From Malikia granosa (GTDB lineage Bacteria > Pseudomonadota > Gammaproteobacteria > Burkholderiales > Burkholderiaceae_C): a stretch of DNA of 45,625 bases. This document shows, piece after piece, positions 23,165-41,520 of this stretch. The position numbers and the translations under genes are program-made. Under the pieces are notes generated by a model. That model worked only from the letters and a program-made list of their open reading frames with translations, made no database searches and was not told the origin of the DNA. The stretch spans positions 1-45,625 of the forward strand of contig NZ_PVLQ01000073.1 in NCBI RefSeq assembly GCF_002980595.1. Reading direction: 5' to 3'. Each line of letters starts with the position of its first letter. Position 1 is the first letter of the stretch.

Positions 23165-23194
23165 GGTGGTCTGGGCCTTGAAAGAGGAAAACCT

Positions 23195-24148: not shown

Positions 24149-24729
24149 GGAAACAGCTCCTCACGCACGGGCCGCTGGCCCGGCACTTCGGCATCGACCA
24201 TCACGCCCATGAAGGCGCCATGGCGACGGGAAAAATGGTCGCGCACCAGCAGCTCGCGGCCGCAGCCGGCACAGGCCACGGTCGAGCTGCTCACGTCCTC
24301 GGTGCAGCCATGGCAATGGGTGCACCAGACGCGCCGGCGCTGGCTGCCCGCATGGGCGAGCTGGATCTGGCCCTCGGCCAGGCCCAGCTCGCGCGCGGCC
24401 AGGAACACCGACCAGGCCCAGGACTCGCGGCCCTGCACGCAGAGCCGGTCGCTCACGCGCAGCGGTGCCTGGCCGGCCAGCGCGCCGACCAGGGCCTGGA
24501 GATCGGCCAGCTCGGTGACCGGGCCCAGGCCTGCGGCCGGCGGCAGCGGACCGAGCGACCAGACCTGCAGGCGCTCGGCCACCGGGGCGAAGGCCGTGGC
24601 CAGATCGGCGAGCAGGGCCTGGTCCATCGACGCGGCATCGAGCACCAGCCAGTGACGACCGGCTGCCAGCTCGGGCGCGAGCGGCAGGTAGACCGGCCGG
24701 CTGGTGACCTCGGAGGGCGGTAGCTTCAT
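24145..24729 (-). CDS. Small zinc-ribbon subunit of dimethylamine N-demethylase (DmmA-like)
   Basis: 194-aa protein with no enzyme motif. The C-terminal part has a zinc-ribbon/rubredoxin-like CTHCHGC ... CAGCGREL, then LLVRDHFSRRHGAFMGVMVDAE. The N-terminal part (PVYLPLAPELAAGRHWLVLDAAS) fits the family I know as dimethylamine monooxygenase subunit DmmA. It lies between mgsC (15 bases) and the reductase (4-base overlap), so it must be made in step with the reductase. Its role in the complex is probably structural or electron-transfer related. Confidence 0.78.
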   Translation of the reverse strand: MKLPPSEVTSRPVYLPLAPELAAGRHWLVLDAASMDQALLADLATAFAPVAERLQVWSLGPLPPAAGLGPVTELADLQALVGALAGQAPLRVSDRLCVQGRESWAWSVFLAARELGLAEGQIQLAHAGSQRRRVWCTHCHGCTEDVSSSTVACAGCGRELLVRDHFSRRHGAFMGVMVDAEVPGQRPVREELFP

Positions 24730-24744: not shown

Positions 24745-26112
24745 TCAGCCGAGGTTTTGACCCGGAATCCAGTGGGTGCCGGCCAGCGGCACCTGGGCCA
24801 TGGCGGCGGCTTCCACCGTCAGGGCCACCAGGTCTTCCGGCTCCAGGTGGTGCACGTCCTGCTTGCCGCAGGCGCGCGCCAGCGTGGTCAGCTCCATGGT
24901 CAAGGTCTTGAGGTAGTTCTTGACATGCTTGGCGCCGTTCTCGGGCTCGAGACGTTGCTCCAGGATCGGGTCCTGCGTCGTCACGCCGACCGGGCATTTG
25001 CCGGTGTGGCAGTGGTGGCAGAAACCGGCCTGGGTGCCGAGGGCGGTGTAGTCGGCCTCGGCGCTGTGGCTCTGGCCGCCCTGCTGGTAGGAGTCGCGGT
25101 TGCAGCCCAGGGCCATCAGCACGCCCTGGCCGATCGCCACGGCATCGGCGCCCAGGGCCAGGGCCTTGGCCACGTCGGCGCCGGTGCGGATGCCGCCCGA
25201 GACGATCAGCTGCACCGTGCCGATCATGTCCAGGTCCTGCAGCGCGGCCACGGCCTGGCGCACCGCCGCCAGCGTGGGAATGCCGGCATGCTCGATGAAG
25301 CAGGTCTGGGTCGCGGCCGTGCCGCCCTGCATGCCGTCGACCACCACCACGTCGGCGCCGGCATGGACCGCCAGCTTGACGTCGTTGTAGACCCGGGTCG
25401 CACCGACCTTGACATAGATCGGCTTTTCCCAGTCGGTCAGTTCACGCAGCTCCTGGATCTTGATCGTCAGGTCGTCCGGACCGGTCCAGTCGGGGTGGCG
25501 GCTGGCCGAGCGCTGGTCCACGCCTTGCGGCAGGGTGCGCATCGCGGCGACGCGCGGGTTGACCTTCTGGCCCAGCAGCATGCCGCCGCCGCCCGGCTTG
25601 GCACCCTGGCCGAGCACGATCTCGATCGCGTCGGCGCGACGCACGTCGTCGGGGTTGAAGCCGTAGCGCGAGGGCAGGCACTGGTAGACCAGGGTCTTGG
25701 ACGACTGGCGCTCCTCCGAGGTCATGCCGCCGTCGCCGGTGGTGGTGGTGGTGCCCATGGCGGTCGCTGCCTTGCCCAGGGCCTCCTTGACGTTGGCCGA
25801 CAGGGCGCCGAAGCTCATGCCGGCGATCGTGATCGGGGTGTCGAGCACCACCGGCTTCTTGGCGAAGCGGGTGCCCAGCACGGTCCTGGTCGAGCATTTC
25901 TCGCGGTAGCCCTCGAGCGGGTAGCGCGACAGCGAGGCGGTCAGGAACAGCAGGTCGTCGAAATGCGGCAGCTTGCGCTTGGCGCCCAGGCCGCGGATCT
26001 CGTACAGGCCGGTGCTGGAGGCGCGGTGGATGTAGTCCAGCGTGCTGCGGTCAAAGCTGGCCGACTCTTCGCGCTGCAGGCGCTTGAAATGGATGGGGTG
26101 TTCGGTGCTCAT
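24745..26112 (-). CDS. mgsC: N-methylglutamate synthase, FMN glutamate-synthase-like subunit MgsC
   Basis: 455-aa FMN-dependent alpha-subunit domain of the glutamate synthase family. SFGALSANVKEALGKAATAMGT and TGDGGMTSEERQ are the FMN and 2-oxoglutarate region, then GQGAKPGGGGMLLGQKV, VVVDGMQGGTAATQT and the 3Fe-4S site CHHCHTGKCPVG. In NMG-pathway bacteria MgsABC moves methylamine from gamma-glutamylmethylamide to 2-oxoglutarate, giving N-methylglutamate. ATG 26112 has GAGGAG upstream. The three-gene split of GltB domains next to gmaS separates this from ordinary glutamate synthase. Confidence 0.9.
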   Translation of the reverse strand: MSTEHPIHFKRLQREESASFDRSTLDYIHRASSTGLYEIRGLGAKRKLPHFDDLLFLTASLSRYPLEGYREKCSTRTVLGTRFAKKPVVLDTPITIAGMSFGALSANVKEALGKAATAMGTTTTTGDGGMTSEERQSSKTLVYQCLPSRYGFNPDDVRRADAIEIVLGQGAKPGGGGMLLGQKVNPRVAAMRTLPQGVDQRSASRHPDWTGPDDLTIKIQELRELTDWEKPIYVKVGATRVYNDVKLAVHAGADVVVVDGMQGGTAATQTCFIEHAGIPTLAAVRQAVAALQDLDMIGTVQLIVSGGIRTGADVAKALALGADAVAIGQGVLMALGCNRDSYQQGGQSHSAEADYTALGTQAGFCHHCHTGKCPVGVTTQDPILEQRLEPENGAKHVKNYLKTLTMELTTLARACGKQDVHHLEPEDLVALTVEAAAMAQVPLAGTHWIPGQNLG

Positions 26113-26122
26113 GGGGGACTCC

Positions 26123-26812
26123 TCAGTAGGTCTGATCAGCGTCGGCGTTCCAGTGGTACAGGCTGCGGGCCGAGGCCACGCGCTTGAAGTCCGTCGGGGC
26201 ATGGGACAGGCCGGCCTGGGCCAGCAACCCGGTCAGCGCGGTGATGTCGGCATCGGTCAGGGGCTCGAGCTGGGCATCGGCGCCCAGGCTCTTGATCTCG
26301 CCCCTGACGTAGATCACGGCCTCGTACAGCGAGTCGCCGAGCGCGTCGCCGGCGTTGCCGCAGATCACCATGCGGCCGGCCTGGGCCATGAAGCCCGAGA
26401 AGCTGCCGACCGAGCCACCGACCACGATGTCGGCGCCCTTGAGCGAGATGCCGCAGCGCAGGCCGGCATCGCCGTCGATCACCAGCAGGCCGCCATGGGC
26501 CGAGGCGCCGGCGCCGTTGGAGGCGAAGCCCTTGACATGGACCTTGCCGCTCATCATGTTCTCGGCGACGCCGGTGCTGGCGCTGCCTTCGATCGTGACG
26601 TTGGCGAACTTGTTCATGCCGGCGGCGTAATAGCCCGCATGGCCCTTGATGGTCACGCTGACCGGCGCGTTGATGCCGACCGCGATGTTGTGCGCGCCGT
26701 CGGGGTGCAGCACCTCGACATGCTGGCCTGCCAGCGCTTCGGGACTGCCGTGCAGGTGCAAGTTGAGCTCGCGCACGCTCTGGCGGCTCAGGTCGAAAGT
26801 CAGATTTTCCAT
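26123..26812 (-). CDS. mgsB: N-methylglutamate synthase, GXGXG-repeat subunit MgsB
   Basis: 229-aa protein matching the C-terminal GXGXG beta-helix domain of glutamate synthase. Glycine-spaced repeats run from about residue 55 to 175 (GHAGYYAAGMNKFANVTIEG, GGLLVIDGDAGLRCGIS, GRMVICGNAGDALGDSLYEA). It has no catalytic site of its own and packs against the other Mgs subunits. Its start overlaps the mgsA end by 13 bases and mgsC follows after 10 bases. Confidence 0.9.
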   Translation of the reverse strand: MENLTFDLSRQSVRELNLHLHGSPEALAGQHVEVLHPDGAHNIAVGINAPVSVTIKGHAGYYAAGMNKFANVTIEGSASTGVAENMMSGKVHVKGFASNGAGASAHGGLLVIDGDAGLRCGISLKGADIVVGGSVGSFSGFMAQAGRMVICGNAGDALGDSLYEAVIYVRGEIKSLGADAQLEPLTDADITALTGLLAQAGLSHAPTDFKRVASARSLYHWNADADQTY

Positions 26813-27708
26813 ACGTACATCTCCTCGGGAGCGGGTTCAAAGACGGTCGCGTGCTCGATGCCCGGCAGGTGGGCGAGCGAACGGAATTCGGAGGCAATGG
26901 CGACGTAGTCGTCGGTCTCGGCGACCACGGCGGGCTTGCAGGCGAAGGGATCGCGGATCAGCGCCAGCTCGGTCGGCGTGCCCATCAGGAAGGTGTAGAA
27001 GCCGTCGAGCGCCTCGAACGCCTTCTGCAGCGCGGTGTGCAGGTCGTCGCCCTCGCGCAGCCGCCATTCCAGGAAGCGGCAGGCGGCCTCGGTGTCGTTG
27101 TCGGTCTCGAACTTGATGCCGCGCGGCTCGAGCATGCGGCGCACCCCGTTGGGGTTGGACAGCGAGCCGTTGTGCACCAGGCAGAAGTCCTCGCCGGCGG
27201 TGAAGGGGTGGGCACGGTCCGGGGTCACGGCCGACTCGGTGGCCATGCGGGTATGGCCCACCAGGTGGCTGCCGGTCAGCTGGCTGAAGCCATAGCGCTC
27301 GGCGACCTGGGCCGGCGTGCCGATGTCCTTGTAGAGGTCGATGCGGCGACCGGTCGACAGGATGTGCAGCTTGCCCTCGAAGGCATGGACGAAGGCCTTG
27401 ACCGGATCGGCCGGGCCGTCGAAGGTGAAGATGGCATGGTTGCCCCGGGTCTGGACCTGGGCATTGACCTTCAGCTCCGCGTTCAGGGCATCGGCCAGGC
27501 CGATCCAGTCATAGGCCGCGCCGGCTTCGGTCAGGCCCGAATACAGGCTGATCTTGCGCTGACCCTCGGGCAGCGGCTGGCCGAAGACGGCCATGCCGGC
27601 CGAATCCGGGCCCCGGTCATGCATGCCGATCAGCATCGGCACCATGAGCTCGCCGAGCCGGCTGTAGAGCTCGGGCTTCTTCAACAACAGTCCAACAATT
27701 CCACACAT
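26800..27708 (-). CDS. mgsA: N-methylglutamate synthase, class II amidotransferase subunit MgsA
   Basis: 302-aa class II glutamine amidotransferase. The mature N-terminus is MCGIVGLLLKKPELYS, with Cys2 as nucleophile, so ATG 27708 is the only sensible start. GMHDRGPDSAGMAVFG, VGHTRMATESAV, and FCLVHNGSLSNPNGVRR are the conserved Ntn-hydrolase motifs. In the methylamine pathway it hydrolyses gamma-glutamylmethylamide and hands methylamine to MgsC. It lies 10 bases downstream of gmaS. Confidence 0.9.
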   Translation of the reverse strand: MCGIVGLLLKKPELYSRLGELMVPMLIGMHDRGPDSAGMAVFGQPLPEGQRKISLYSGLTEAGAAYDWIGLADALNAELKVNAQVQTRGNHAIFTFDGPADPVKAFVHAFEGKLHILSTGRRIDLYKDIGTPAQVAERYGFSQLTGSHLVGHTRMATESAVTPDRAHPFTAGEDFCLVHNGSLSNPNGVRRMLEPRGIKFETDNDTEAACRFLEWRLREGDDLHTALQKAFEALDGFYTFLMGTPTELALIRDPFACKPAVVAETDDYVAIASEFRSLAHLPGIEHATVFEPAPEEMYVWKI

Positions 27709-27718
27709 GATTGCTTCC

Positions 27719-29116
27719 TTAAAAAAATTCGAGGTACTGCTTGACTTCCCACTCGGAGACATGGCGCATGTACTCGATCCACTCCATGCGCTTGAACTTG
27801 AGGAACTCGTCCGTGACCGGGCCCAGGGCCTCGCGGATCACGCTGTCGGCCTCCAGGGCATCGAGCGCGGCGTTCAGGTTCTGCGGCAGCAGTCCGATGC
27901 CGGCCTCCTTGAGCTGCTCCTCGCTCCACTGGTAGAGGTTGACGTTGCGCGGCGTGCCCGGGTCCATCTTCTTGGCGATGCCGTCCAGGCCGGCCGCGAT
28001 CACGGCCGCCGTCGCCAGGTAGGGGTTGCAGGCGCCGTCGGGCAGGCGCAGCTCGAGCCGGCCCTTCGGGATGCGCACCATGGTCGAGCGGTTGTTGTCG
28101 CCGTAGCTGATGTAGGCCGGGGCCCAGGTGGCGCCGGTCAGTGAGCGGCCGACCACCAGGCGCTTGTAGGAGTTGACGGTGGGTGCGCACAGGGCGGTCA
28201 GTGCCGGGGCGTGGTGCAGCAGACCGGCCAGGAACTGGTAGGCCATCGGCGAGAGCTCCAGGCCGCTGGGGTCGCTCTTGTCCTGGAACAGGTTGCGCTT
28301 GCCGTCGCCGATCGACAGGTGCATGTGCATGCCGTTGCCCGGGCGATTGGCGAAGGGCTTGGGCATGAAGGAGCAGATCAGGCCGAGCTCGTTGGCGATC
28401 TCGCTGGCCGCCATCTTGAAGAAGACGAAGTGGTCGCAGGAGGTCAGGCAGTCGGTATAGGTGTAGTTCAGCTCGAACTGGCCGTTGGCGTCCTCGTGGT
28501 CGATCTGGTAGACATCGATGCCGGTGCCGCGCATCGCCTCGGACAGCTTCTCGAGGAAGAGCCGGGTGCGCGACAGGCCCTTGTAGTCGTAGCAGGGCTT
28601 GGCCAGGTTGTCGCTGGCGTCATGCGGCACGATGCCGCCGTTGGCATCGCGGCGCAGCAGCGAGAACTCGGGCTCCAGGCCGGTGAACAGGGTCAGGCCC
28701 TGCTCGGCCAGGCGCGCGACCTGCTGCTTGAGCACGACGCGGCTGTCGAACTTCCAGGGCTCGCCCTCGACATGGCCGTCGCAGATGATGCGTGCCAGGC
28801 CGGGCTGCCAGGGCACGAGCGAGACGGTCTGCAGGTCGCCGACCGCCATGAAGTCCGGGCCATGCGGCTCGATCCCCATGCCGGAGATGGCAAAACCCGC
28901 GAAGCCTGCACCATCGGTCAGGATGGTGTTCAAATGATCCACCGGCACCGACTTGGCCTTGGCCACGCCGTGGATGTCGACGAACTGAGCCAGCACATAG
29001 CCAATGCCCTGGGACTTGAGATAGGCCTGGGTGTCCTCGACGTTGCTGAAGCGTTTCGGGAGTACCAGCCCGCCCGGATCGGGCTGGCTGGCGAATGGGG
29101 CGGCAAGTGTGTTCAA
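27719..29116 (-). CDS. gmaS: Gamma-glutamylmethylamide synthetase GmaS (type III glutamine-synthetase-like)
   Basis: 465-aa ATP-dependent ligase joining methylamine to glutamate, first step of the N-methylglutamate pathway. Glutamine-synthetase fold motifs: [56 protein letters not shown] and [28 protein letters not shown]. The best start is TTG 29116, with AAGGAG (29124-29129 on this strand) seven bases before it and no in-frame ATG nearby. It heads an eleven-gene unit running to folB. A GlnT-type glutamine synthetase is the alternative reading, but the mgsABC neighbours argue for GmaS. Confidence 0.9.
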
Positions 29117-29206
29117 GGGAAAACTCCTTCGGTTGGCAATCAGGGTTCGGCTACTGGTCTCGATGGCGTCGATCTTGGTGCGTGGTCGACTCCATGTTTC
29201 TTCTTA

Positions 29207-29222
29207 TGCAACATTTGTGCCC
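29207..29222 (-). promoter_or_regulatory. Sigma-54 promoter of the gmaS operon
   Basis: Read on the - strand: GGGCAC, five bases, TTGCA, with the required GG-N10-GC spacing. Only the first base differs from the TGGCAC-N5-TTGCW consensus. Transcription would start about 80 bases upstream of the TTG start codon. A GGTGCG half-site lies at 29177-29182. Confidence 0.7.
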
Positions 29223-29286
29223 GGTAGGAATTTTTTTGCTGCCGCCACGTACACTTTTTTCCAGCCACAAAAACAAGGAGCGGGTT

Positions 29287-29889
29287 TTGAACAAGCAGGG
29301 TGACAAGCCGGCGATCTCGATCGAGGAATCGGTCGGATCGGCCATCAAGGAGCTGCGCCAGCGCCATGGACTGACGATTGCGCAGGTCTCGGAGCAAGCC
29401 AGCATCAGCCGCGGCATGCTCTCGAAGATCGAGAACGGGCAGACGGCGGCCGGCATGGAGACACTGGCGCGCATCGCGCGGGCGCTGGGGGTCTCGATGT
29501 CGATGCTTTTCAGCAAGTACGACGTGTCGGCGAGCACCGCGCAGCACATCAAGAAGGGCAAGGGCATGGAGGTGGTGCGTCGTGGCACCAAAAGCGGGCA
29601 TACCTACCACCTGCTCGCCTATGACCAGGGCCCGGTCAAGCTGTTCGAGCCCTTCCTGATCACGATGGAAGACGACACGGAGCAGTACCCCACCTTCCAG
29701 CACCCGGGCACCGAGCTGCTCTACATGCTCGAGGGCAAGCTGGAATACCGCTGCGGGCCGGATACCTATCTGCTCGAGCCCGGCGACTCGCTGACCTTCC
29801 AGGGCGAGGTGGCCCATGGCCCCGAGAAACTGCTGAAGTTCCCGATCAAGTTCCTGTCCTTCATCGTCTATCCGCGCGGCGCGGAGTAG
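29287..29889 (+). CDS. XRE-cupin transcriptional regulator
   Basis: 200-aa regulator diverging from gmaS. The N-terminal helix-turn-helix (LRQRHGLTIAQVSEQASISRGMLSKIENGQTA in part, residues about 20-51) is XRE type; the C-terminal cupin has HPGTELLYMLEGKLEYRCG and LEPGDSLTFQGEVAHGP. The start is TTG 29287: AAGGAG at 29275-29280 is six bases away, and no ATG is near. XRE-cupin regulators of this layout often sit beside glutamine-synthetase-like ligases (PuuR with PuuA is the known case), so the effector may be methylamine or gamma-glutamylmethylamide. It converges on the hutD-like gene. Confidence 0.87.
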   Translation: MNKQGDKPAISIEESVGSAIKELRQRHGLTIAQVSEQASISRGMLSKIENGQTAAGMETLARIARALGVSMSMLFSKYDVSASTAQHIKKGKGMEVVRRGTKSGHTYHLLAYDQGPVKLFEPFLITMEDDTEQYPTFQHPGTELLYMLEGKLEYRCGPDTYLLEPGDSLTFQGEVAHGPEKLLKFPIKFLSFIVYPRGAE

Positions 29890-29910: not shown

Positions 29911-30507
29911 TCAGCGCAGGACCGTGAGCAGCAGCAGGCTGTCCGCTGCGCGAGCGACCAGGGAGCCTGGTGTCGCCAGGTCCTGCAGCTGCAGGCCTTC
30001 GCCGGGCAGCAGCAGCAGCGGCTCGGCCCCGGGCAGGGCCAGCTCGAATCGACCGCGCAGGACCAGCGCCAGCAGATCGGGCGCAGACGGCAGCGATACC
30101 GTATCCTCGTCGGCGATCAGCAGATCGGCCTGGGCCTGGCCGCGCTGCACCATCACGTTCCACAGCTGGGTCGGCTGCTGCGGAGCCTCGCACTGCAGGT
30201 CCAGCTCGCCGGGAAACTGCGCGTAGGAACCCGGCCCGTCGAAGCGCCAGGCCTGGTGCTGGCCGATCAGGCCCAGTGCGCCGCCCTGGACCATGACGGC
30301 GGTGCGGTCCATGCCCTCGAAACGCGAGAACGGCCCGGCCGCGCCGATGTCGGCCACGCTGACGCGCCAGCGCAAGCGGCCCTGCTGCTCGCGGCTGGCG
30401 ACCGTGCGTGTCCAGCCGCCACCGTTCTTCCAGGCCTCGCGCGGCAAGGTCTCGATGGCAAAGCGGCGCAGCACGGGCGGCCGCGACAGCAACGAACTGC
30501 CGCTCAT
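29911..30507 (-). CDS. HutD family protein
   Basis: 198-aa bicupin-like HutD protein. RFAIETLPREAWKNGGGWTRTVAS at the N-terminus (residues about 13-36) is the family hallmark, followed by WRVSVADIGAAGPFSRFEGMDRTAVMVQGG. HutD is linked to histidine utilisation in pseudomonads, where it is thought to act as a governor of the pathway, not an enzyme. Here no hutH, hutU or hutI is in the window. Its ATG overlaps the etfA stop (ATGA), so it belongs to the FAD-dehydrogenase/ETF operon. Confidence 0.85.
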   Translation of the reverse strand: MSGSSLLSRPPVLRRFAIETLPREAWKNGGGWTRTVASREQQGRLRWRVSVADIGAAGPFSRFEGMDRTAVMVQGGALGLIGQHQAWRFDGPGSYAQFPGELDLQCEAPQQPTQLWNVMVQRGQAQADLLIADEDTVSLPSAPDLLALVLRGRFELALPGAEPLLLLPGEGLQLQDLATPGSLVARAADSLLLLTVLR

Positions 30508-31454
30508 GCGCCAGTCGCCGCGCGCGGCAGGCCAGCGCTGAGCGCGGGCAGGACCTCGAACAGGTCGCCGACCAGGCCCACATCGGCGACCGAGAAGATC
30601 GGCGCGTCGGGGTCCTTGTTGACGGCCACGATCACGCCGGCGTCCTTGATGCCGGCCAGGTGCTGGATGGCACCCGAGATGCCGAAGGCGAAATAGACAT
30701 CGGGCGCCACGGTCTTGCCGGTCTGGCCGACCTGGATGGCGTTCGGCGCGAAGCCGGCATCGACCGCCGCGCGCGAGGCCCCGACGGCGGCCCCCAGGTG
30801 GTCGGCCAGCTGCTCGACCAGGGCCATGTGCTCGCGCGCGCCGACGCCGCGCCCGGCCGCCACCACCACGCGGGCGCGGCTCAGGTCGGGGCGACCGCTG
30901 TCCATGGCCTCGCGGCTCTCGAGCTGGCTGCGGCCATCGGCGCTGACCGAGTCCAGCGTCAGCACGGGGCAGGCCGGCTGCATGCCGGCGGCCGGGGCAT
31001 GGGCCGCGGGGCGCAGGGTCAGCAGCGTCTTGGCGGCCTGGGCCTCGACGCAGGCCAGCACGCTGCCGGCGTACAAGGGGCGCAGGAAGCGGGGGCCGGC
31101 CTCGATCGCCACCACATCGCTCAGGTAGGCCGCCTGCAGGCGGGCCGCGGCGCGCGGCAGGGCGCCGCGGTACAGCATGCGGTGCGCGGCCAGCAGGATG
31201 TCGTAGTCGGGCATCAGCGCCTCGAGCTGCAGCGCCAGGGTCTCGGCCGAAGGCTGGTCCCACTGCGGATGCGGCGCCAGCAGCACCTGCGAGACGCCGG
31301 CCAGCGTGGCTGCGGCCTGGGCGACTGCTGCAGCGCCCTGCCCCAGCAGCAGCAGATGCACCGGGGCGCCGATCTGCAAGGCCGCGCCCAGCAGGTTCAG
31401 GGTGGAAGGATCGAGCTGGGTGCCGTCGTGTTCAGCGATGACGAGGGTGGTCAT
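30504..31454 (-). CDS. etfA: Electron transfer flavoprotein alpha subunit (pathway-specific paralogue)
   Basis: 316-aa FAD-carrying ETF subunit. The C-terminal FAD domain is clear: GRGVGAREHMALVEQLADHLG, GASRAAVDAGFAPNAIQVGQTGK, APDVYFAFGISGAIQHLAG and VIVAVNKDPDAPIFSVAD. The N-terminal half is divergent (MTTLVIAEHDGTQLDPST). It follows etfB by 27 bases and precedes hutD. Its place behind an FAD amine dehydrogenase, not an acyl-CoA dehydrogenase, suggests a dedicated ETF rather than the housekeeping pair. Confidence 0.9.
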   Translation of the reverse strand: MTTLVIAEHDGTQLDPSTLNLLGAALQIGAPVHLLLLGQGAAAVAQAAATLAGVSQVLLAPHPQWDQPSAETLALQLEALMPDYDILLAAHRMLYRGALPRAAARLQAAYLSDVVAIEAGPRFLRPLYAGSVLACVEAQAAKTLLTLRPAAHAPAAGMQPACPVLTLDSVSADGRSQLESREAMDSGRPDLSRARVVVAAGRGVGAREHMALVEQLADHLGAAVGASRAAVDAGFAPNAIQVGQTGKTVAPDVYFAFGISGAIQHLAGIKDAGVIVAVNKDPDAPIFSVADVGLVGDLFEVLPALSAGLPRAATGA

Positions 31455-31481
31455 GGTGGGGAAGCTTTCAGGATGACAGGG

Positions 31482-32237
31482 TCAGGCGCCGAACGCGGGC
31501 AGGCCGCGCAAGCGGTCGAGCAGCGGCGCGATGCCGTCGACGCGCACGCCGGCGGCGCGCGCCGGTGGCGTGGCGCAGCGGACGATGCGGAAGCGGGCAG
31601 CCTGCTCGGCCGCGAGCTCGCCCAGCGCCAGCGTCGTGATCGGCGCCTTCTTCGCCTTCATCATGTTGGGCAGGCTGATCGCGCGCGGGTCGCACAGGCG
31701 CAGGTCGACGCCGAGCACGGCGGGCAGCGGCAGGCGCCACTGCTCCAGGCCCAGGTCGCCGTCGCAGTGGACCCGCAGTCCGCCATCGACCGCTTCCAGC
31801 CGGTTGACCGACATCGCCTGCGGCCAGTCGAGGCGCGCGGCGAGCATCGGCGCCAGGTCGCCCAGGTCGTCGTCGATCGCCTGCTTGCCGCACAGCACCA
31901 GGTCCACCCCTTCGCGCTGCACCAGCTGGCTCAGCGCCTCGGCCAGCGCCGGGGCATCAGCCTCGCTGCTGCCCGGATCGAGCAGGATCGCCGCATCCGC
32001 CCCCATGGCCAGCGCCGTGCGCAGCACGTCCTGCGCCACCGGGGCGCCGCAGCCGACCACCGTGACCCGGCTCGCCTGGCCGGCCTGGCGCAGGCGCACG
32101 GCCTGCTCCACGGCAACCTCGTCGAAGGGGTTGAGCGACATCTTGAGGCCGGCGGTGTCGACCCCGGAGCCGTCGCTGCGCACGCGCACCTTGACGTTGT
32201 AGTCGACCACGCGCTTGACAGGTACCAGTATGTGCAT
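31482..32237 (-). CDS. etfB: Electron transfer flavoprotein beta subunit (pathway-specific paralogue)
   Basis: 251-aa ETF subunit. MHILVPVKRVVDYNVKVRV is the family N-terminus, MSLNPFDEVAVEQAVRL follows, and SLPNMMKAKKAPI is the recognition loop that docks on partner dehydrogenases. GKQAIDDDLGDLAPMLA replaces the usual GKQAIDDDxNQTGQMLA, so it is a divergent copy. I start at ATG 32237, six bases after GGGAG; ATG 32243 directly abuts that site and is less likely. It lies 19 bases after the FAD dehydrogenase gene. Confidence 0.9.
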   Translation of the reverse strand: MHILVPVKRVVDYNVKVRVRSDGSGVDTAGLKMSLNPFDEVAVEQAVRLRQAGQASRVTVVGCGAPVAQDVLRTALAMGADAAILLDPGSSEADAPALAEALSQLVQREGVDLVLCGKQAIDDDLGDLAPMLAARLDWPQAMSVNRLEAVDGGLRVHCDGDLGLEQWRLPLPAVLGVDLRLCDPRAISLPNMMKAKKAPITTLALGELAAEQAARFRIVRCATPPARAAGVRVDGIAPLLDRLRGLPAFGA

Positions 32238-32256
32238 GTCCATCTCCCTCTGCGGT

Positions 32257-33441
32257 TCAGGACACCGCGCCCAGGCCGTAGCGGCCGGAGAGCAACTGGC
32301 CGCTGCGGAAACGCTCGTGCGCGTAGGGCGCGAGCGAGACCTCGGTCGGCAGGCCCAGCGCTTCCTGGGCCAGCACCAGGCCGACGCCGGGCGAGAGCTT
32401 GAAGCCATGACCCGAGAAGCCGTAGCCCACCACCAGGCCGGGCACGTCGGGCAGGCGGCCGAGCACCGGGTTCCAGTCGGGCGTGACGTCGTAGACGCCG
32501 GTCCAGGAGGAAGCCAGCCCGGCCTCGCCGAACGAGGGGAAGCGCTCGGCCACCTGGCCGCCGACCTCGACCACATAGTCCATCGAGATGTCGCCCTGCT
32601 CGTTGTCGGGCAGCGCCAGGGTCTCGCCCACCGTGCCTTCGCTGACCAGCATCTGGTTGCCGCCGTAGCTGCGGCAGTACAGCATGCCCGGCGAGCCCAG
32701 GTCCTTGAACACCGGCATCTTGAAGCTGTAGGCCTCGGGGCCCTCGAGCGCGAGCACGGCATGGCGCTCGGCCTTGACCGGGGTCGGGACACCGGTCCAG
32801 CGCTCGATGTCGCCGGCCCAGATGTTCTGGGTGCTGATCACGGTCTGGCTGCGGAAGCTGCCCTGGTTGGTCTCGACGCCGACCACGCGGCCGTTCTCCA
32901 TCAGCAGGCGCTCGACATTGACGCCCTCCATGATCTTCACGCCCAGGCGGCGTGCGGCGCGGGCAAAGCCGGTGGCCACCAGATAGGCATCGGCAAAGCC
33001 GGCCTCGGGCTCGTAGCCGATCAGCGCCGCATCGTCGAACTGGGCGATCGGCAGCAGCTCGCGCGCGGCGGCCTGGTCGAGCAGGCGCACCTCGACGCCC
33101 ATGCGCTCCTGGCCGGCCAAGGCCTCACGCAGGGGCTCGAGCTTGGGGCCGTCGGGCGCGCAGATCAGGTAGCCGCACTTGACCAGGCCGGCCGAGGCTT
33201 CCTCGTCGCCAAGGTAGCCGGAGAAGTCGTTGAACACCGACCAGGAGTGCTTGGCCAGCTCCACGTTCTCGATCACCGAATAGTGGGTGCGCAGGATGCC
33301 CGAGGACTGGGTGCTGGTGCCCGAGCCGATCTGCAGCCGGTCCAGCACCAGGACCCGGGCGGCCCCTAGGCGCGCGAGGTGGTAAGCGACCGAACTTCCG
33401 ATCACGCCGGCACCGATCACGATGGCGTCATAACTCTGCAT
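32257..33441 (-). CDS. FAD-dependent amine dehydrogenase (DAO / sarcosine-dehydrogenase family)
   Basis: 394-aa flavoprotein of the glycine/D-amino-acid oxidase family. The FAD site is VIGAGVIGSSVAYHLARLG; SSGILRTHYSV matches the position of the RxNY-type motif of sarcosine oxidase beta subunits; the C-terminal VVGYGFSGHGFKLSPGVG is the second FAD contact. I start at ATG 33441 (MQSYDAI). It heads an operon with etfB, etfA and hutD, so electrons probably go to ETF and not to oxygen. In this island the obvious missing step is N-methylglutamate oxidation, for which it is the candidate. Sarcosine or dimethylglycine are alternatives. Confidence 0.85.
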   Translation of the reverse strand: MQSYDAIVIGAGVIGSSVAYHLARLGAARVLVLDRLQIGSGTSTQSSGILRTHYSVIENVELAKHSWSVFNDFSGYLGDEEASAGLVKCGYLICAPDGPKLEPLREALAGQERMGVEVRLLDQAAARELLPIAQFDDAALIGYEPEAGFADAYLVATGFARAARRLGVKIMEGVNVERLLMENGRVVGVETNQGSFRSQTVISTQNIWAGDIERWTGVPTPVKAERHAVLALEGPEAYSFKMPVFKDLGSPGMLYCRSYGGNQMLVSEGTVGETLALPDNEQGDISMDYVVEVGGQVAERFPSFGEAGLASSWTGVYDVTPDWNPVLGRLPDVPGLVVGYGFSGHGFKLSPGVGLVLAQEALGLPTEVSLAPYAHERFRSGQLLSGRYGLGAVS

Positions 33442-33594
33442 GGGGGAAACCTTTCTGGGCTTGGGGGTTGGCAATGGAGTCAAGCTTAGGAGCCACTGGC
33501 CGGCCGCCTGACAACTGAAGCAAATCTGATGCTATGTTTTGGTTTTTCGAATGCTCCGGCGACTGCCGGCCCTCCCCCCTACCATCGAGCCACC

Positions 33595-34617
33595 ATGTCG
33601 CCCAGTACCCCTGCTGCCCGTCCATCCCGCCGTTCGCGCCAGCTGCCCGACCTGCAGCTGCTCGAGGCCTTTGTCGCCGTCTGCGACGCGGGATCGATGG
33701 CGCTGGCCGCGCAGCAGCTGGGCCTGAGCCAGAGCGCGGTCAGCCAGTCGATCAAGACGCTGGAGACCGAACTCGGCCTGCAGCTGCTCGACCGCGAGGT
33801 GCGTCCCGCCGTCGCGACCCACGCCGGTCGCGTGCTGCGCGAGCGCGCCACCCGCCTGCTCGGCCAGGCCCGGGTGCTGGTCGAGCAGGTGCGCGCGAGC
33901 GCGCGCCAGCAACACACACAGATCCACCTGGGCTGCGTCGATTCGTTCGCGGCCACCGTGGGCCCGCGGCTGATCCGCGCGCTGTCGGGCTCGGCACAGC
34001 AGATCCTGATGTGGTCGGGCCTGACGCCCACGCTGACCGAGCAACTGCGCGGACGCGAGCTCGATTTCGCGATCTGCACCGACTCGGCCATCGATGACCC
34101 GCGCATCGTGCAGCGCCTGCTGTTCTCCGAATCCTGGGTCGCGGTGTTCCCGAAGGCCCATCCGGTCAGAGCCCTGGCAGCGGCGCGCGAGCTGTCGGCC
34201 CTGCCCGGCGCGCTGCCGCTGATCCGCTACAGCCAGCGCTCGGTGATCGGCCAGCAGATCGAGCGCTTCCTGCGCCATATCGGCGTGCAGGCGCCGCGCA
34301 GCTACGAGTTCGACGCCACCGACCCGTTGCTCAGCCTGGTGGCCTCGGGCCTGGGCTGGGCGCTCTCGACGCCGCTGTGCCTGTGGCAGTCGCGCCAGTA
34401 CCTCGACGAGGTGGTCGTGCTCCCGATTCCCGCCACCCGGCTCGGCCAGCGCCATTTCTTCCTGCTCTCGCGCGAGGACGAATGGGCCGGCCTGGACGAG
34501 CATATCGCCCGCGTCACGCGCGACGTGATCCGCCAGGACACGAGCACCGCCATCCACCGTTCCATGCCCGGCCTGCCGCCGGACGCCCTGTTCTGCCCCC
34601 AAGAAGAGACGCCATGA
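33595..34617 (+). CDS. LysR family transcriptional regulator
   Basis: 340-aa LysR regulator. The winged HTH is FVAVCDAGSMALAAQQLGLSQSAVSQSIKTLE in part (residues about 24-55), followed by a periplasmic-binding-like effector domain. It diverges from the FAD dehydrogenase operon across 153 bases and overlaps hutG (ATGA), so it likely controls both the dehydrogenase-ETF side and the hutG/ETF-QO side. ATG 33595 gives a normal family length apart from a basic leader of about 16 residues. Effector unknown. Confidence 0.9.
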   Translation: MSPSTPAARPSRRSRQLPDLQLLEAFVAVCDAGSMALAAQQLGLSQSAVSQSIKTLETELGLQLLDREVRPAVATHAGRVLRERATRLLGQARVLVEQVRASARQQHTQIHLGCVDSFAATVGPRLIRALSGSAQQILMWSGLTPTLTEQLRGRELDFAICTDSAIDDPRIVQRLLFSESWVAVFPKAHPVRALAAARELSALPGALPLIRYSQRSVIGQQIERFLRHIGVQAPRSYEFDATDPLLSLVASGLGWALSTPLCLWQSRQYLDEVVVLPIPATRLGQRHFFLLSREDEWAGLDEHIARVTRDVIRQDTSTAIHRSMPGLPPDALFCPQEETP

Positions 34618-35423
34618 CCCTAGACACCCCCACCTACACCCTGCAGCAGGGCCGCCTGCCGCTGTTGATCTCGATCCCGCACCTGGGCACCGAGCTGCCG
34701 CCCGAGTTCGCCGCCGGCATGAGCGACAGCGCGCCGATCAAGCAGGACACCGACTGGCACCTCGACCGGCTCTACGGGTTTGCCGCCGGCCTGGGCGCCT
34801 CGGTGCTGCAGGCCAAGGTCTCGCGCTACGTGATCGACCTGAACCGACCGCCCGGCGGCGAGAGCCTCTACCCCGGCCAGACCACCACCGGCCTGTGCCC
34901 GACCGAGACCTTCCGCGGCGAACCGCTCTATGAACAGGCACAGGCCCCCGACGCGGCGCAGCAGGCCGATCGCCTGGCGCGCTACTGGCGGCCCTACCAC
35001 GACGCGCTGCGGACCGAGCTCGACCGGCTCAAGGCGCAGCACGGCGCGGTGCTGCTGTGGGATGCCCACTCCATCGCCAGCATGCTGCCGCGGCTGTTCG
35101 AGGGCAAGCTGCCCGACCTGAACTTCGGCACCGCCGACGGCCGCAGCTGCGCCCCGGCCATCATCGAGCGCGTGGTCGCCGAGGTCGGCGGCAGCGGATT
35201 CAGCCATGTGGTCAATGGCCGCTTCAAGGGCGGCTACATCACGCGCCACTACGGCTCGCCCGCCGACCGGGTGCACGCGATCCAGCTCGAGATGGGGCAG
35301 GACCTCTACATGCTCGAGGACCCACCGTTCAGCTACCTGGAATACAAGGCCACCTCGGTCCAGCCGCTGCTGCAGAAGATGCTGCTGACCGCGCTGAGCG
35401 AGCTCGACCGCCTGACTGCCTGA
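34614..35423 (+). CDS. hutG: N-formylglutamate amidohydrolase HutG
   Basis: 269-aa hydrolase releasing formate and L-glutamate from N-formylglutamate. PLLISIPHLGTELPPEF, QDTDWHLDRLYGF, YVIDLNRPPGGESLYPGQTTTGLCPTETF and LLWDAHSIAS are strong HutG landmarks with the expected metal-binding His/Asp. It overlaps the LysR stop and precedes ETF-QO by 34 bases. No other histidine-degradation enzyme gene is near, so a histidine role is doubtful here. Confidence 0.9.
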   Translation: MTLDTPTYTLQQGRLPLLISIPHLGTELPPEFAAGMSDSAPIKQDTDWHLDRLYGFAAGLGASVLQAKVSRYVIDLNRPPGGESLYPGQTTTGLCPTETFRGEPLYEQAQAPDAAQQADRLARYWRPYHDALRTELDRLKAQHGAVLLWDAHSIASMLPRLFEGKLPDLNFGTADGRSCAPAIIERVVAEVGGSGFSHVVNGRFKGGYITRHYGSPADRVHAIQLEMGQDLYMLEDPPFSYLEYKATSVQPLLQKMLLTALSELDRLTA

Positions 35424-35457
35424 CCCGCCCGCCCCCTCTCCTATCCGATCAGTCCCC

Positions 35458-37140
35458 ATGAGCCCAGAAGACCTCCTCGGCCGCTACGGCCCGCGCGAAG
35501 CGATGGAATACGACCTGGTGGTCGTCGGCGCCGGCCCCGCCGGCCTGGCGACCGCGATCCGCCTCAAGCAGCTGGCCGCCCAGCAGGGCAGCGAAGTCAG
35601 CGTCTGCGTGCTGGAAAAAGGCTCGGAACCCGGTGCCCATATCCTGAGCGGCGCGGTCATGGACCCGAAGGCCCTGGCCGAGCTGTTCCCGGACTGGCAG
35701 GCACTCGGCGCCCCGCTGCACCAGCCCGTGACCGGCGACGAGCTGCTGCTGCTCAGCGAAACCGGCACCCGGCGCACCCCCGGCTGGCTGATGCCGCGCA
35801 ACTTCGACAACCACGGCTGCTACGTCATCAGCCTGGGCGCCGTCACGCGCTGGCTGGCCGAACAGGCCGAAGCGCTGGGGGTCGAGATCTTCCCGGGCTT
35901 TGCCGCCGCCGAGCTGCTGTACCACGAGGATGGCTCGGTCAAGGGCGTGGCCACCGGCAACCTGGGCCTGGGCAAGGACGGCGAGCCGACCGAGGCCTTC
36001 CAGCTCGGCATGGAACTGCACGCCAGGTACACCGTGTTCGCCGAAGGCGCGCGCGGCCACCTGGGCAAGCAGCTGATCGCGCGCTATCGGCTCGACGAAG
36101 GCCGGGACGCGCAGACCTTTGCCATCGGCATCAAGGAACTGTGGGAGATCCCGGCCGAGCAGGCCAGGCCCGGCCTGGTGCTGCACACCGCCGGCTGGCC
36201 GCTGAACGACGAGGCCTTCGGCGGCGGCTTCCTCTATCACCTCGAAGGCAACAAGGTCACGCTGGGCTACGTCGTCGGCCTGGACTACCAGAACCCCTGG
36301 CTGTCGCCGTTCGAGGAAATGCAGCGCTGGAAGACCCACCCGAGCATCAGGGCCCATATCGAGGGCGGCAAGCGCCTGGGCTATGGCGCGCGCGCGCTCA
36401 ACAACGGCACGCCCCAGGCCCTGCCCCGGACCGTGTTCCCGGGCGGCGCGCTGGTCGGCTGCGACGCGGGCTACCTGAACGCCGCGCGCATCAAGGGCAG
36501 CCACGCCGCGATCAAGAGCGGCATGCTGTGCGCCGAGGCGGCGTTCGAGGCCTTGAGCGCCGGTCGCAGCAGCGATGAACTGACCGGTTTCGAGACCCGC
36601 TTCAAGGCCAGCTGGCTGCACGAGGAACTCTGGACCTACCGCAACTTCAAGAACTGGTTCAAGAAGAGCCCGCTGCTGGGCAAGCTCATGACCGGCATCG
36701 AGCACTGGCTGCTGCCCAGGGTTGGCGTGGCCCAGCCGCCCTGGACCCTGCACAACCGGGTCAAGGACCACGGCAAGCTGCGCCCGGCGGCCGAAAGCCG
36801 CAAGATCGACTATCCCAAGCCCGACGGCAAGCTGAGCTTCGACCGCCTGAGCTCGGTATTCATCAGCAACACCAACCACGAGGAGAACCAGCCGGCGCAC
36901 CTGACGCTGAAGGACGCCAGCGTGCCGGTCAAGGTCAACCTGGCCAGGTTCGCCGGTCCCGAGAGCCGCTACTGCCCGGCCGGCGTCTACGAGTTCGTCA
37001 ACAAGGACGGCGCGGACCAGCTGGTGATCAACGCGCAGAACTGCGTGCACTGCAAGACCTGCGACATCAAGGACCCGACGCAGAACATCGTCTGGGTCAC
37101 GCCCGAGGGCGGCGGCGGCCCCAACTACGCCGGCATGTGA
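35458..37140 (+). CDS. Electron transfer flavoprotein-ubiquinone oxidoreductase (ETF-QO)
   Basis: 560-aa membrane-associated flavoprotein passing electrons from reduced ETF to ubiquinone. The FAD site is LVVVGAGPAGLATAIRLK, followed by EKGSEPGAHILSGAVMDP; the C-terminal ferredoxin-like domain binds a 4Fe-4S cluster through CPAGVYEF and NCVHCKTCDIKDPTQNI. It is full length. Together with the EtfBA pair across the LysR gene it completes a route from the FAD dehydrogenase to the quinone pool. It could also serve acyl-CoA dehydrogenases if it is the only copy in the genome. Confidence 0.94.
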   Translation: MSPEDLLGRYGPREAMEYDLVVVGAGPAGLATAIRLKQLAAQQGSEVSVCVLEKGSEPGAHILSGAVMDPKALAELFPDWQALGAPLHQPVTGDELLLLSETGTRRTPGWLMPRNFDNHGCYVISLGAVTRWLAEQAEALGVEIFPGFAAAELLYHEDGSVKGVATGNLGLGKDGEPTEAFQLGMELHARYTVFAEGARGHLGKQLIARYRLDEGRDAQTFAIGIKELWEIPAEQARPGLVLHTAGWPLNDEAFGGGFLYHLEGNKVTLGYVVGLDYQNPWLSPFEEMQRWKTHPSIRAHIEGGKRLGYGARALNNGTPQALPRTVFPGGALVGCDAGYLNAARIKGSHAAIKSGMLCAEAAFEALSAGRSSDELTGFETRFKASWLHEELWTYRNFKNWFKKSPLLGKLMTGIEHWLLPRVGVAQPPWTLHNRVKDHGKLRPAAESRKIDYPKPDGKLSFDRLSSVFISNTNHEENQPAHLTLKDASVPVKVNLARFAGPESRYCPAGVYEFVNKDGADQLVINAQNCVHCKTCDIKDPTQNIVWVTPEGGGGPNYAGM

Positions 37141-37408: not shown

Positions 37409-37446
37409 CGCTTGAGACCGTCCACAACCGCCCTATGGAGCTCCCC

Positions 37447-39144
<1,698 letters not shown>

Positions 39145-39145
<1 letters not shown>

Positions 39146-41520
39146 TGAGCAGCCCCGACGATGCCGCGCCCGTGGCGGCACGCGCCCCGGTGGCGACCCA
39201 TGTGCGCGAACCCGCGCTGTCGCGCCGCACGCCGACGCTGGAGCGCTACCGCGTGAGCGGCGGCGGCGCGACAGTCGTGCGGCTGGCCGCGGGCGATGCA
39301 CTGGAAGTGATCGACCCCGAGGGCCTGCAGGCCTGCGAGCTGATGGCATGGGATGCCGAGGGGCGCGCCGCCCTGCCGGCGCTCGGCCTGCAGGCATCGC
39401 CCGGGGCCAGCGGCTTGGCCAGCCTGCTGCAGCGCCAGCGGCCCGAGCTGCGCATGCTGCAAGCCGGGCTGCGGCGCCACGGCGTGGACCTTGAGCAACT
39501 ACCCGACGCCTGCCAGCTCTGGGCCGGCGACGGCCCGGCGGGGCAGCGGCAACGCTGCACCGCGAGCGCCGAGCTGCTGGTGCTGGTGGCGGCACCGGGC
39601 CAGGACAGCCAGGTGCACGAGCAGAACGCCCCGACGCCACTGGCCCTGCAGGTGCAGCGCCACGGCCGCGATGTCCTCGCTGCCCCACCGCTGCCCGAGC
39701 CGCTGGGCGAGGTGGTCGACGAGTTCACCATCGCGCCGGGCACGGCGCGCAGCTACACCGTCGCCAAGGGCCAGTACATCCAGATCATCGATGTCGCCGG
39801 GCGCCAGTGCTCCGACTTCGTGGCCTTCAACCGGCAGGCGCTCGAGCGCGGCATCGAGCAAGAGCTCGATCCCACGGTCACGCGCACGCTCGGCGGACGC
39901 GCCTACCCGGGGCCTGGCCTGCACTCGCGCTTCTTCGATCGCGAGATGCAGCCCATGCTCGAGCTGGTGCAGGACACCGTAGGCCGGCACGACACCTTCG
40001 GCCTGGCCTGCGCGGCGCGCTACTACGAAGGCATGGGCTACTTCGGCCATGCCAATTGCAGCGACAACCTCTCGCGCGAGCTGGCGCCCTACGGCGTGCG
40101 CGCGCGGCCGGGTTGGCCCGCGATCAATTTCTTCTACAACACCGGCGTCGATGCGCACGACCAGCTGACCATGGACGAACCCTGGTCCAGGCCGGGTGAC
40201 CATGTGCTGCTGCGCGCGCTCGACGACCTGGTCTGCGCCAACACCTCTTGTCCGGACGACATCGACCCCGCCAACGGCTGGATGCCGACCGACATCCACG
40301 TCCGCCTCTACGCCGCCCAGGAGCGCTTCAGCATGGCACTTGCCCACCGACCCACCCCCGACGCCGAACCCACCATGACCCGCGAAAGCGGCTTCCACGG
40401 CGCCACCTCGGCGCTCACGCGGCAGTTCGGCGACTACCGCGGCTGGTGGACGCCGATGCGCTACGACGGCTACGGTGCGGTGGCCGAATACCAGGCCTGC
40501 CGCGAGCAGGTCGCGCTGATGGACCTGTCGGCGCTGCGCAAGTTCGAGATCATCGGCCCCGATGCCGAAGCCCTGCTGCAGTACTGCCTGACGCGCGACG
40601 TCAAGAAGCTGGCGGTCGGCCAGGTGGTGTATTCGGCCATGTGCTATCCGCACGGCGGCATGCTCGACGACGGCACCCTGCTGCGGCTGGGACCGGACAA
40701 CTTCCGCTGGATCTGCGGCGAGGACTACAGCGGCATCTGGCTGCGCGAGCAGGCCGAGCAGCTCGGCATGAAGGTCTGGGTCAAGTCGGCCAGCGACCAG
40801 ATCCACAACGTCGCGGTGCAGGGCCCGCGGGCGCGCGAGCTGCTGCGCCAACTGGTCTGGTCGCCCGGCACGCAGCCGGCGCTGGAGAACCTGGGCTGGT
40901 TCCGCTTCCTGGTCGGCCGCCTCGACGATCACAACGGCTGCCCGCTGATGGTCTCGCGCACCGGCTACACCGGCGAACTCGGCTACGAGGTCTGGTGCCA
41001 CCCGAGCGACGCGCCGCGCGTCTGGGCCCGGCTGTGGGAACTGGGCCAGCCGCTCGGCCTCGCGCCGCTGGGCCTTGACGCGCTCGATACCCTGCGCATC
41101 GAGGCCGGCCTGGTGTTCGCTGGCCACGAGTTCTGCGACCAGACCGATCCCTTCGAAGCTGGCATCGGCTTCTGCGTGCCGCTCAAGAGCAAGAGCGACG
41201 ACTTCATCGGCCGCGCGGCGCTGCTCGAGCGCAGCGCACACCCGCAACGCAAGCTGATGGGCCTGCTGCTCGATGGCAATGAAATGGCGGCGCACGGCGA
41301 CGGCGTCTACATCGGCCATGCCCAGGTCGGCGTGGTCACCAGCGCCACCCGCTCGCCGCTGACCGGACAGAACATCGCGCTGTGCCACCTGAGCGTGTCC
41401 CACGCGACGCCCGGCACCCGGGTCGAGATCGGCAAGCTCGACGGACACCAGAAGCGCCTGCCCGCTGCCGTGAGCGCCCCGATCTTCTACGATCCCGACA
41501 AGAGCCGCGTGCGCGCCTGA
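39145..41520 (+). CDS. tdm: Trimethylamine-N-oxide demethylase Tdm (DUF1989-GcvT fusion)
   Basis: 791-aa two-part enzyme: an N-terminal DUF1989 half (to about residue 410) that splits TMAO into dimethylamine and formaldehyde, and a GcvT-like half (about 420-780; VSRTGYTGELGYEVWC, LDALDTLRIEAGLVFAG) that captures the formaldehyde on THF. Cys289, Cys305 and Cys369 (C-x15-C-x63-C) are candidate ligands for the zinc site known in this family. ATG 39145 overlaps the glnK stop. The length agrees with described Tdm proteins, allowing a slightly longer N-terminus. Tmm, which supplies TMAO, is encoded convergently next door. Confidence 0.92.

Follow-up and report, generated by a model that had tools for sequence, protein, structure and literature searches.

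The window analyzed here is a stretch of 45,625 nucleotides, the entire contig NZ_PVLQ01000073.1 of the 3.83-Mb genome of Malikia granosa (completeness 99.69%), and it carries between 19 and 43 kb an island for the aerobic use of methylated amines. Our subject is a module inside this island that encodes a flavin adenine dinucleotide (FAD)-dependent oxidoreductase (DAO), an electron transfer flavoprotein (ETF), an ETF:ubiquinone oxidoreductase (ETF-QO), a LysR-type regulator, and proteins of the HutD and HutG families (Table 1). The island holds gmaS and mgsABC (genes spanning 24745-29116) and therefore encodes the synthesis of N-methylglutamate (NMG); the mgdABCD genes of the step that follows were not found in the window. 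The original prediction, made from the sequence of the window, had noted both facts, together with a flavoprotein gene in one operon with its own etfB and etfA and an ETF-QO gene across a shared LysR regulator, and had proposed an ETF-linked system for NMG oxidation in place of MgdABCD. All of these genes were recovered by family models (Pfam for the module) where they had been placed. Lying within the same interval, hutG and hutD had gone unmentioned. By locus, the nearest named relative is Malikia spinosa, with a DAO identity of 98% (scan of GTDB contigs, from which the best 80 of 185 relatives were kept).

Because of their tight gaps and overlaps, the genes of the module look like two divergent operons. 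In the leftward one, dao and etfB are separated by 13 bp and etfB and etfA by 27 bp, and etfA overlaps hutD by 4 bp; in the rightward one, lysR overlaps hutG by 4 bp, and hutG is separated from the ETF-QO gene by 34 bp. The two operons diverge from a 153-bp gap between dao and lysR. It is from this context, with etfB-etfA starting 13 bp past dao and ETF-QO encoded in the divergent operon, that DAO would be expected to reduce ETF.

Table 1. Annotated features of the window, with the module in the first rows.
Feature	Positions	Strand	Evidence
dao, 394-aa FAD-dependent oxidoreductase, proposed N-methylglutamate dehydrogenase	32257..33441	-	PF01266 E 3.9e-61
etfB	31482..32243	-	PF01012 E 1.6e-39
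etfA	30504..31454	-	PF00766 E 1.1e-34, PF01012
hutD-like bicupin	29911..30507	-	PF05962 E 3e-29; match to solved HutD 5fcc E 1.3e-9
LysR-type regulator, divergent from dao	33595..34617	+	PF00126, PF03466
hutG, N-formylglutamate deformylase, DAO-linked clade	34614..35423	+	TIGR02017 355.5 bits, cut-off 278.75
ETF:ubiquinone oxidoreductase (ETF-QO)	35458..37140	+	PF05187 E 3e-50, PF21162 E 1.3e-40
gmaS, gamma-glutamylmethylamide synthetase	27719..29116	-	TIGR03105 641.9 bits, cut-off 469.6; start uncertain
mgsA, class II amidotransferase subunit	26800..27708	-	GATase_6/7
mgsB, GXGXG (glxC-like) subunit	26123..26812	-	PF01493
mgsC, FMN glutamate-synthase-like subunit	24745..26112	-	PF01645 E 1.5e-94
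XRE-cupin regulator of the gmaS cluster	29194..29889	+	HTH_3, Cupin_2; start codon uncertain
dimethylamine monooxygenase, three genes: HODM alpha-like, reductase, DmmA-like	22085..24729	-	PF11927, Fer2/FAD_binding_6, NF041259, PF22289
GcvT-like folate protein, DmmD-like	20902..22032	-	GCV_T E 3.1e-63
purU	20030-20893	-	PF00551; adjoins dmm, with folD 11-14 kb from dao
folD	19114-20019	-	PF02882/PF00763; adjoins dmm
amtB and glnK	37435..39145	+	amtB TIGR00836 above cut-off; glnK by reading and an annotated counterpart adjoining amtB
tdm, trimethylamine N-oxide demethylase	39142..41520	+	NF053776 1183.6 bits, cut-off 1100
tmm, trimethylamine monooxygenase	41844..43187	-	NF058570 840.3 bits, cut-off 675

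The module is not a chance neighborhood, since its layout recurs in many genera and on annotated plasmids. A block of gmaS, mgsABC and the XRE regulator adjoins LysR-DAO, often with etfBA, HutD, HutG or ETF-QO, in Malikia, Hydrogenophaga, Rhodoferax, Aquabacterium, Lampropedia, Aquariibacter, Paraburkholderia, Burkholderia, and others. The same gene set is present in shuffled order in Derxia, and conjugative plasmid p1 of Cupriavidus metallidurans BS1 has the order hutG, lysR, dao, etfB, etfA, hutD, etfQO, XRE, gmaS, mgsABC; similar blocks lie on plasmids pTB101 of Aquabacterium olei, where the etf genes are lacking, and pl1WSM5005 of Paraburkholderia sprentiae. DAO was present in 4 of 100 genomes drawn from the family of the window. 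The window, the 80 kept loci and four more loci from genomes give 85 DAO rows; in 33 of these, the window among them, no more than 10 kb separates gmaS from DAO. The LysR cluster of open reading frames is represented at 66 of the 80 loci.

The possibility, raised with the original prediction, of mgdABCD genes elsewhere in the genome was tested for mgdC and not borne out: a whole-genome search with the MgdC/SoxA model TIGR01372 gave no full-length match, only matches of the GcvT-part or Rossmann type (best 182 bits, model positions 616-995; the other mgd subunits were not searched with models of their own), whereas 524-884 bits are reached in this search by the MgdC-type genes of other genomes. 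We then compared genomes of the order, drawing 349, in 49 of which GmaS scored above its cut-off; these 49, with G033 (where gmaS was recognized by synteny) and the congener G051, made up the set searched for MgdC and DAO. Among the 50 gmaS genomes, an MgdC-type match occurs in 35 and DAO in 4 (G000, G033, G157, and G336), with none having both and 11 having neither; in G051, DAO was not found. In 32 of these 35 genomes, gmaS and the MgdC match are no more than 1 kb apart; in G190, G195, and G243, the match is partial and sits on a different contig. G157 also has a SoxA that scores above the sarcosine-oxidase cut-off, on a contig other than that of gmaS.

A second set was built from the DAO side, with 50 genomes chosen from the 80 kept loci, gmaS being near DAO in 24 and not near it in 26; GmaS was over its cut-off in 31 of these 50. 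In the 24 genomes with the two genes close together, no SoxA or MgdC match was found near gmaS, and 7 of them have a SoxA over the sarcosine-oxidase cut-off, always away from gmaS. Some genomes recur in these sets under several labels (G157, G472 and L043 are one genome, as are G336, G448 and L032, and G033 and L030).

The same exclusion appears on plasmids. Among 31 plasmid records with a GmaS of the window type at E 1e-150, 25 carry MgdC (at least 45% identity, same record), 6 carry DAO and none carries both, although the MgdC plasmids are not independent of each other, 20 of the 25 being from Acinetobacter. In all six gmaS+DAO records DAO lies 1.5-5.1 kb from gmaS; HutG and HutD stand beside it in all six, and etfBA and ETF-QO as well in five. 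One of the six, from Burkholderia stagnalis, has a SoxA-type match of 38.7% at a distance of 408 kb; for the other five, the absence of weaker SoxA-type matches holds among the matches listed, 342 further rows being unlisted. Within a single species, Paraburkholderia caribensis, the plasmids differ: that of strain MBA4 (NZ_CP012748.1) carries gmaS and MgdC, those of MWAP64 and 852011 (NZ_CP013104.1 and NZ_CP015960.1; L202 and L203) gmaS and the DAO module. On pTB101 (L198:19438-24304) and pl1WSM5005 (L201:18435-23280), five identically annotated genes flank the module (an amino acid synthesis family protein, an alpha/beta hydrolase, a flavin reductase, an LLM monooxygenase, and an aldehyde dehydrogenase). 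None of them matched an NCBIfam model over its cut-off among the families listed; in character they resemble a set for trigonelline degradation, a pathway expected to set methylamine free.

As controls, we inspected the surroundings of gmaS (4-13 kb per side) in 20 of the 35 Mgd-type genomes. HutG, HutD, EtfA, EtfB, ETF-QO, and LysR were all absent from these 20 islands at E<=1e-3. The XRE-cupin regulator is shared, being found in 17 of the 20, and purU or folD occurs in 7 of the 20 versus none of 33 gmaS-linked DAO loci (the window not counted; L010 and L030 among them are one genome, and many of the loci are short). A classic order is seen on the megaplasmid of Acidithiobacillus caldus: XRE, purU, mgd genes, gmaS, mgsABC, folD. 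From gene content, the carbon can exit via formyl-tetrahydrofolate and PurU in the Mgd type, and a predicted formylglutamate deformylase is often there instead in the DAO type. By genome context, the replacement of MgdABCD by DAO and ETF, as originally predicted, thus appears well supported.

The flavoprotein itself agrees with this role. Only DAO and related FAD-binding models match the 394-aa protein, which has no GcvT or folate domain and scores below the cut-offs of the 25 NCBIfam families listed (40 matched). Its AlphaFold model (41 sequences; pLDDT 88.4, pTM 0.90) is closest to the L-proline dehydrogenase 1y56_B of Pyrococcus horikoshii among solved structures (TM-score 0.86, 25% identity), followed by sarcosine oxidase beta subunits, glycine oxidase, monomeric sarcosine oxidase, and dimethylglycine dehydrogenase. 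In addition to the PF01266 domain and the fold, the protein has the Arg and Lys of the carboxylate pair typical of the superfamily: Arg51 and Lys348 are kept in DAO and in 20/20 MgdA, and we take them to align with the residues that bind the substrate carboxylate in monomeric sarcosine oxidase. In an alignment to 2gag_B, Ala152 occupies in 85/85 DAO rows a position that is His in 20/20 MgdA, presumably the histidine to which FMN (flavin mononucleotide) is attached in SoxB. We therefore rejected the idea that DAO is an orphan MgdA. Lys265 of monomeric sarcosine oxidase activates oxygen, and Lys265 mutants of this enzyme are among the structure matches; at its position all 85 DAO rows have Leu265/Val266, in an alignment of low identity. 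An oxygen-using oxidase was judged unlikely, given that no lysine is found there, and the residues of DAO rather appear to fit a dehydrogenase. Four further residues, Arg226, His227, Lys246, and Arg257, are invariant in 84/84 DAO (the long-branched L075 being omitted) and replaced by others in MgdA, and are candidates to hold the side-chain carboxylate of the substrate.

Further indications come from hutG and hutD. HutG is over its cut-off in 50 of the 51 DAO genomes (that of M. granosa and the chosen 50), urocanase (hutU) in 27, or in 28 if any match is counted. Of the 23 genomes without urocanase, M. granosa included, 22 have HutG, which lies within 10 kb of DAO in 17. No match to urocanase (TIGR01228) was obtained in the genome of M. 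granosa, where the island copy is the single HutG match; a part in histidine degradation was rejected for it on this ground. In a tree of 97 HutG rows (89 different, pairs of identical rows being included), one clade of 56 (support 97) takes up 55 of the 57 DAO-linked rows; its one other member, L187, is linked to neither DAO nor hutU, and hutU-linked rows are absent from it. The two DAO-linked HutG that fall outside lie beside the more distant DAO (65%) of G160 and G204. In these genomes (L192 and L193), this DAO adjoins etfBA, ETF-QO and a second, divergent HutG, and a urocanase-linked HutG is also present.

The DAO-linked HutG have kept most of what is conserved in their relatives: of 74 positions that at least 18/19 HutG of hut operons keep, 63 are likewise retained by at least 95% of the 51 DAO-linked sequences (the long-branched L057 was dropped), which suggests that their substrate is probably still N-formylglutamate. 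HutD is of the family that reportedly binds N-formylglutamate; the literature search did not return this report. HutG without urocanase was itself rejected as a proof of DAO chemistry, for a reason found in the order sample, where 46 of the 349 genomes have HutG and 62 urocanase: 7 of 11 genomes with the former and without the latter have no DAO in the fetched region.

Our interpretation, to which we assign a probability of about 0.55, is that the module takes the place of MgdABCD at the final step of the methylamine pathway, most likely via N-formylglutamate. GmaS and MgsABC would convert methylamine to NMG, the likely substrate of DAO. DAO would oxidize its N-methyl group and pass the electrons to ETF, the part of the scheme of which we are most confident, and from there through ETF-QO to ubiquinone. 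The imine held on the enzyme, or its hydrate, would be oxidized again to N-formylglutamate, a product for which we see the chances as even; HutG would split it into glutamate and formate, and HutD might, tentatively, sense or limit it. It is the presence of hutG and hutD, with their link to N-formylglutamate metabolism, that suggests a second oxidation, and N-formylglutamate rather than glutamate and formaldehyde. Choline oxidase is a precedent for two successive oxidations at a single flavin site. The methyl carbon would depart as formate, having had glutamate as its carrier, with no free formaldehyde and no tetrahydrofolate, and for an enzyme lacking a folate domain N-formylglutamate would be the means to avoid free formaldehyde. 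In a broader form of this proposal, about which we are somewhat more doubtful than convinced, glutamate itself would be the one-carbon carrier, with two flavin steps by one DAO/ETF enzyme, a dedicated HutG paralog, and formate obtained without folate or methanopterin; the DAO-HutG pair, shared with catabolic clusters devoid of gmaS, would then replace MgdABCD and PurU/FolD in many Burkholderiales.

Several observations weigh against this interpretation. To our knowledge, no flavoenzyme turns an N-methyl into an N-formyl group. GmaS is not over its cut-off in 19 of the 50 chosen DAO genomes, and in 16 it is not found even at E 1e-120. The separation from Mgd is not perfect either: G489 and G491, the only two of the 50 with an MgdC-type match beside gmaS, hold DAO away from that cluster, Paraburkholderia phymatum has DAO on a replicon other than that of its MgdC-type gmaS cluster, and in G456, where DAO is linked to gmaS, a SoxA-type match of partial length lies away from gmaS (597.8 bits, positions 499-996). 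The DAO genome G464 lacks HutG. In the order sample, DAO lies in the same island in only 4 (G000, G157, G237, and G336) of the 11 genomes with HutG and without urocanase; for the other seven, no DAO was found in the fetched region, which in two cases spans 10.4 and 6.9 kb, and the search covered the whole genome in G196 only. The companions of DAO are frequent, not constant: among the 46 rows that extend at least 9 kb to either side, HutG lies within 10 kb in 31 and etfB in 28; for the 19 gmaS-linked rows of this set, the counts are 14 and 10, respectively. Since relatedness among the genomes means that they are not independent, and since HutG is frequent in the family of the window (7/10 genomes of the order sample), we do not take as probabilities the Fisher values of 0.006 for DAO versus MgdC in the 50 gmaS genomes and 1.8e-25 for HutG in DAO genomes lacking hutU.

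DAO also occurs without nearby gmaS (class B), in Achromobacter, Bordetella, Pandoraea, Variovorax, and Limnohabitans, and therefore cannot serve the methylamine pathway alone; the substrate of the family must be other or wider, and an exclusive role in methylamine use does not hold, even though the replacement of MgdABCD is borne out by genome context and by the dehydrogenase-like residues. Class B loci of Achromobacter, Bordetella, Pandoraea, and some Paraburkholderia have etfBA and HutG, those of Variovorax HutG, and those of Limnohabitans neither; some have neighboring ABC transporters, of the NMT1 type or other. L059, L084, and P. phymatum were confirmed to carry a hutD gene between DAO and etfB. 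At six loci, mostly of Limnohabitans (L061, L065, L071, L072, L083, and L096), DAO stands with LysR alone, in a flank without HutG, ETF or gmaS match. On pBPHY02 of P. phymatum (L204:16147-24106), DAO, a HutD-like gene and etfBA lie near a divergent formylglutamate amidohydrolase (116 bits, below the HutG cut-off), an ABC transporter, an AtzE-like amidase, and an M24 (ectoine-hydrolase-like) peptidase. The DAO of class B may act on NMG or another compound from outside. According to a report cited in the available portion of PMC13390433, Mgd also takes part in homarine catabolism, from which NMG may arise as an outside supply; DAO clusters without gmaS could be accounted for in this way. Linkage to gmaS changes at least 4 times on the DAO tree (60 rows counted), suggesting that the module was probably joined to or parted from the methylamine pathway more than once.

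The occurrence of DAO without gmaS invites the view that it acts on another N-methyl or secondary amino acid, such as sarcosine, dimethylglycine or a proline-like compound, within a broader nitrogen island, with NMG oxidized by an unrecognized enzyme. The best structural match, an L-proline dehydrogenase, and the transporters, amidase and M24 peptidase at some loci would fit such a substrate. We nevertheless find it improbable, as DAO and MgdC are complementary in genomes and on plasmids, the module adjoins gmaS-mgsABC just as the mgd genes do in Mgd-type islands, and the window shows no other candidate for the missing step. Still less plausible, to the point of being a marginal prospect, is that the gene order alone misleads, with HutG and DAO hitch-hiking on a mobile island and methylamine used otherwise, for example by a methylamine dehydrogenase elsewhere in the genome. 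The island is indeed plasmid-borne in some hosts, and the congener G051 does without DAO, but the gene set recurs in shuffled order in Derxia and on the Cupriavidus plasmid, which argues for function rather than descent alone.

More weight, though still well short of an even chance, belongs to the view that DAO and ETF do replace MgdABCD and yet free glutamate and formaldehyde, like a folate-less sarcosine oxidase, HutG and HutD serving otherwise, e.g., by clearing N-formylglutamate formed in a side reaction. The absence of a folate domain from DAO, its fold relatives among N-methyl amine oxidases and dehydrogenases, and the 11 of 33 gmaS-linked rows without HutG within 10 kb can all be read this way, and free formaldehyde is discussed even as a product of MgdABCD (available portions of PMC5023228 and PMC5023235). 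What makes us prefer N-formylglutamate as the product is that a single HutG clade tracks DAO whether or not gmaS is present, that HutD and HutG are distributed over both operons of a genome without urocanase, and that the Tdm and DmmD-like proteins of the same island carry GcvT folate domains, DAO none.

Compared with known systems, DAO resembles MgdABCD in acting, as proposed, last after GmaS and MgsABC, in its SoxB-like FAD subunit, and in the Arg/Lys pair. It differs in being a single subunit where MgdABCD has four, and in lacking both a SoxA/GcvT subunit and the FMN histidine; ETF and ETF-QO often adjoin it, and HutG accompanies it rather than PurU/FolD. Its identity to MgdA is 23-27% in aligned pieces. 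The mitochondrial dimethylglycine and sarcosine dehydrogenases are likewise N-demethylases of the DAO fold, the former among the fold matches, and feed ETF and ETF-QO, but carry a C-terminal folate (GcvT) domain that DAO lacks. The L-proline dehydrogenase 1y56_B, an FAD dehydrogenase of the closest solved fold and distant in sequence, is a subunit of a complex; the other parts of this complex were not among the Pfam matches of the operon, although no search was aimed at them. HutG and HutD belong to the same families as those of histidine utilization (TIGR02017 and PF05962), with most invariant HutG positions kept, yet the island HutG falls in a separate clade, in a genome without urocanase match.

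The product of MgdABCD is given as glutamate and 5,10-methylene-tetrahydrofolate in the available parts of PMC13390433 and PMC5023235. For methylamine oxidation, as studied in methylotrophic Proteobacteria, that of PMC5023228 names two non-orthologous routes, of which the NMG pathway is one. As we read it, the NMG pathway closes here with a non-orthologous enzyme, and this second ending occurs across many genera of Burkholderiales and on plasmids. Our literature search, with most subscription journals outside it, returned no description of an ETF- or N-formylglutamate-linked end of the pathway, whether by methylglutamate with a formylglutamate term or by N-methylglutamate with electron transfer flavoprotein and methylamine. 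A survey that seeks gmaS, mgsC, and mgdC together, as the one in the accessible part of PMC5023228 did, would miss the DAO type. If the formyl step is true, it would represent a new way in which a methyl group is oxidized to formate while bypassing formaldehyde and any pterin or folate carrier, and it would bear on formaldehyde handling by organisms of the NMG pathway, including Methyloversatilis, for which the matter is left unsettled in the part of PMC5023235 available.

The remaining genes of the island surround the module on both sides (Table 1). The name DmmD-like for the GcvT-like folate protein is tentative, being drawn from gene position. An Rfam scan of the window gave no match. Just beyond the island, at 43790-45571 on the minus strand, lies a gene for an acyl-CoA dehydrogenase (Pfam Acyl-CoA_dh domains), another usual donor of electrons to ETF.

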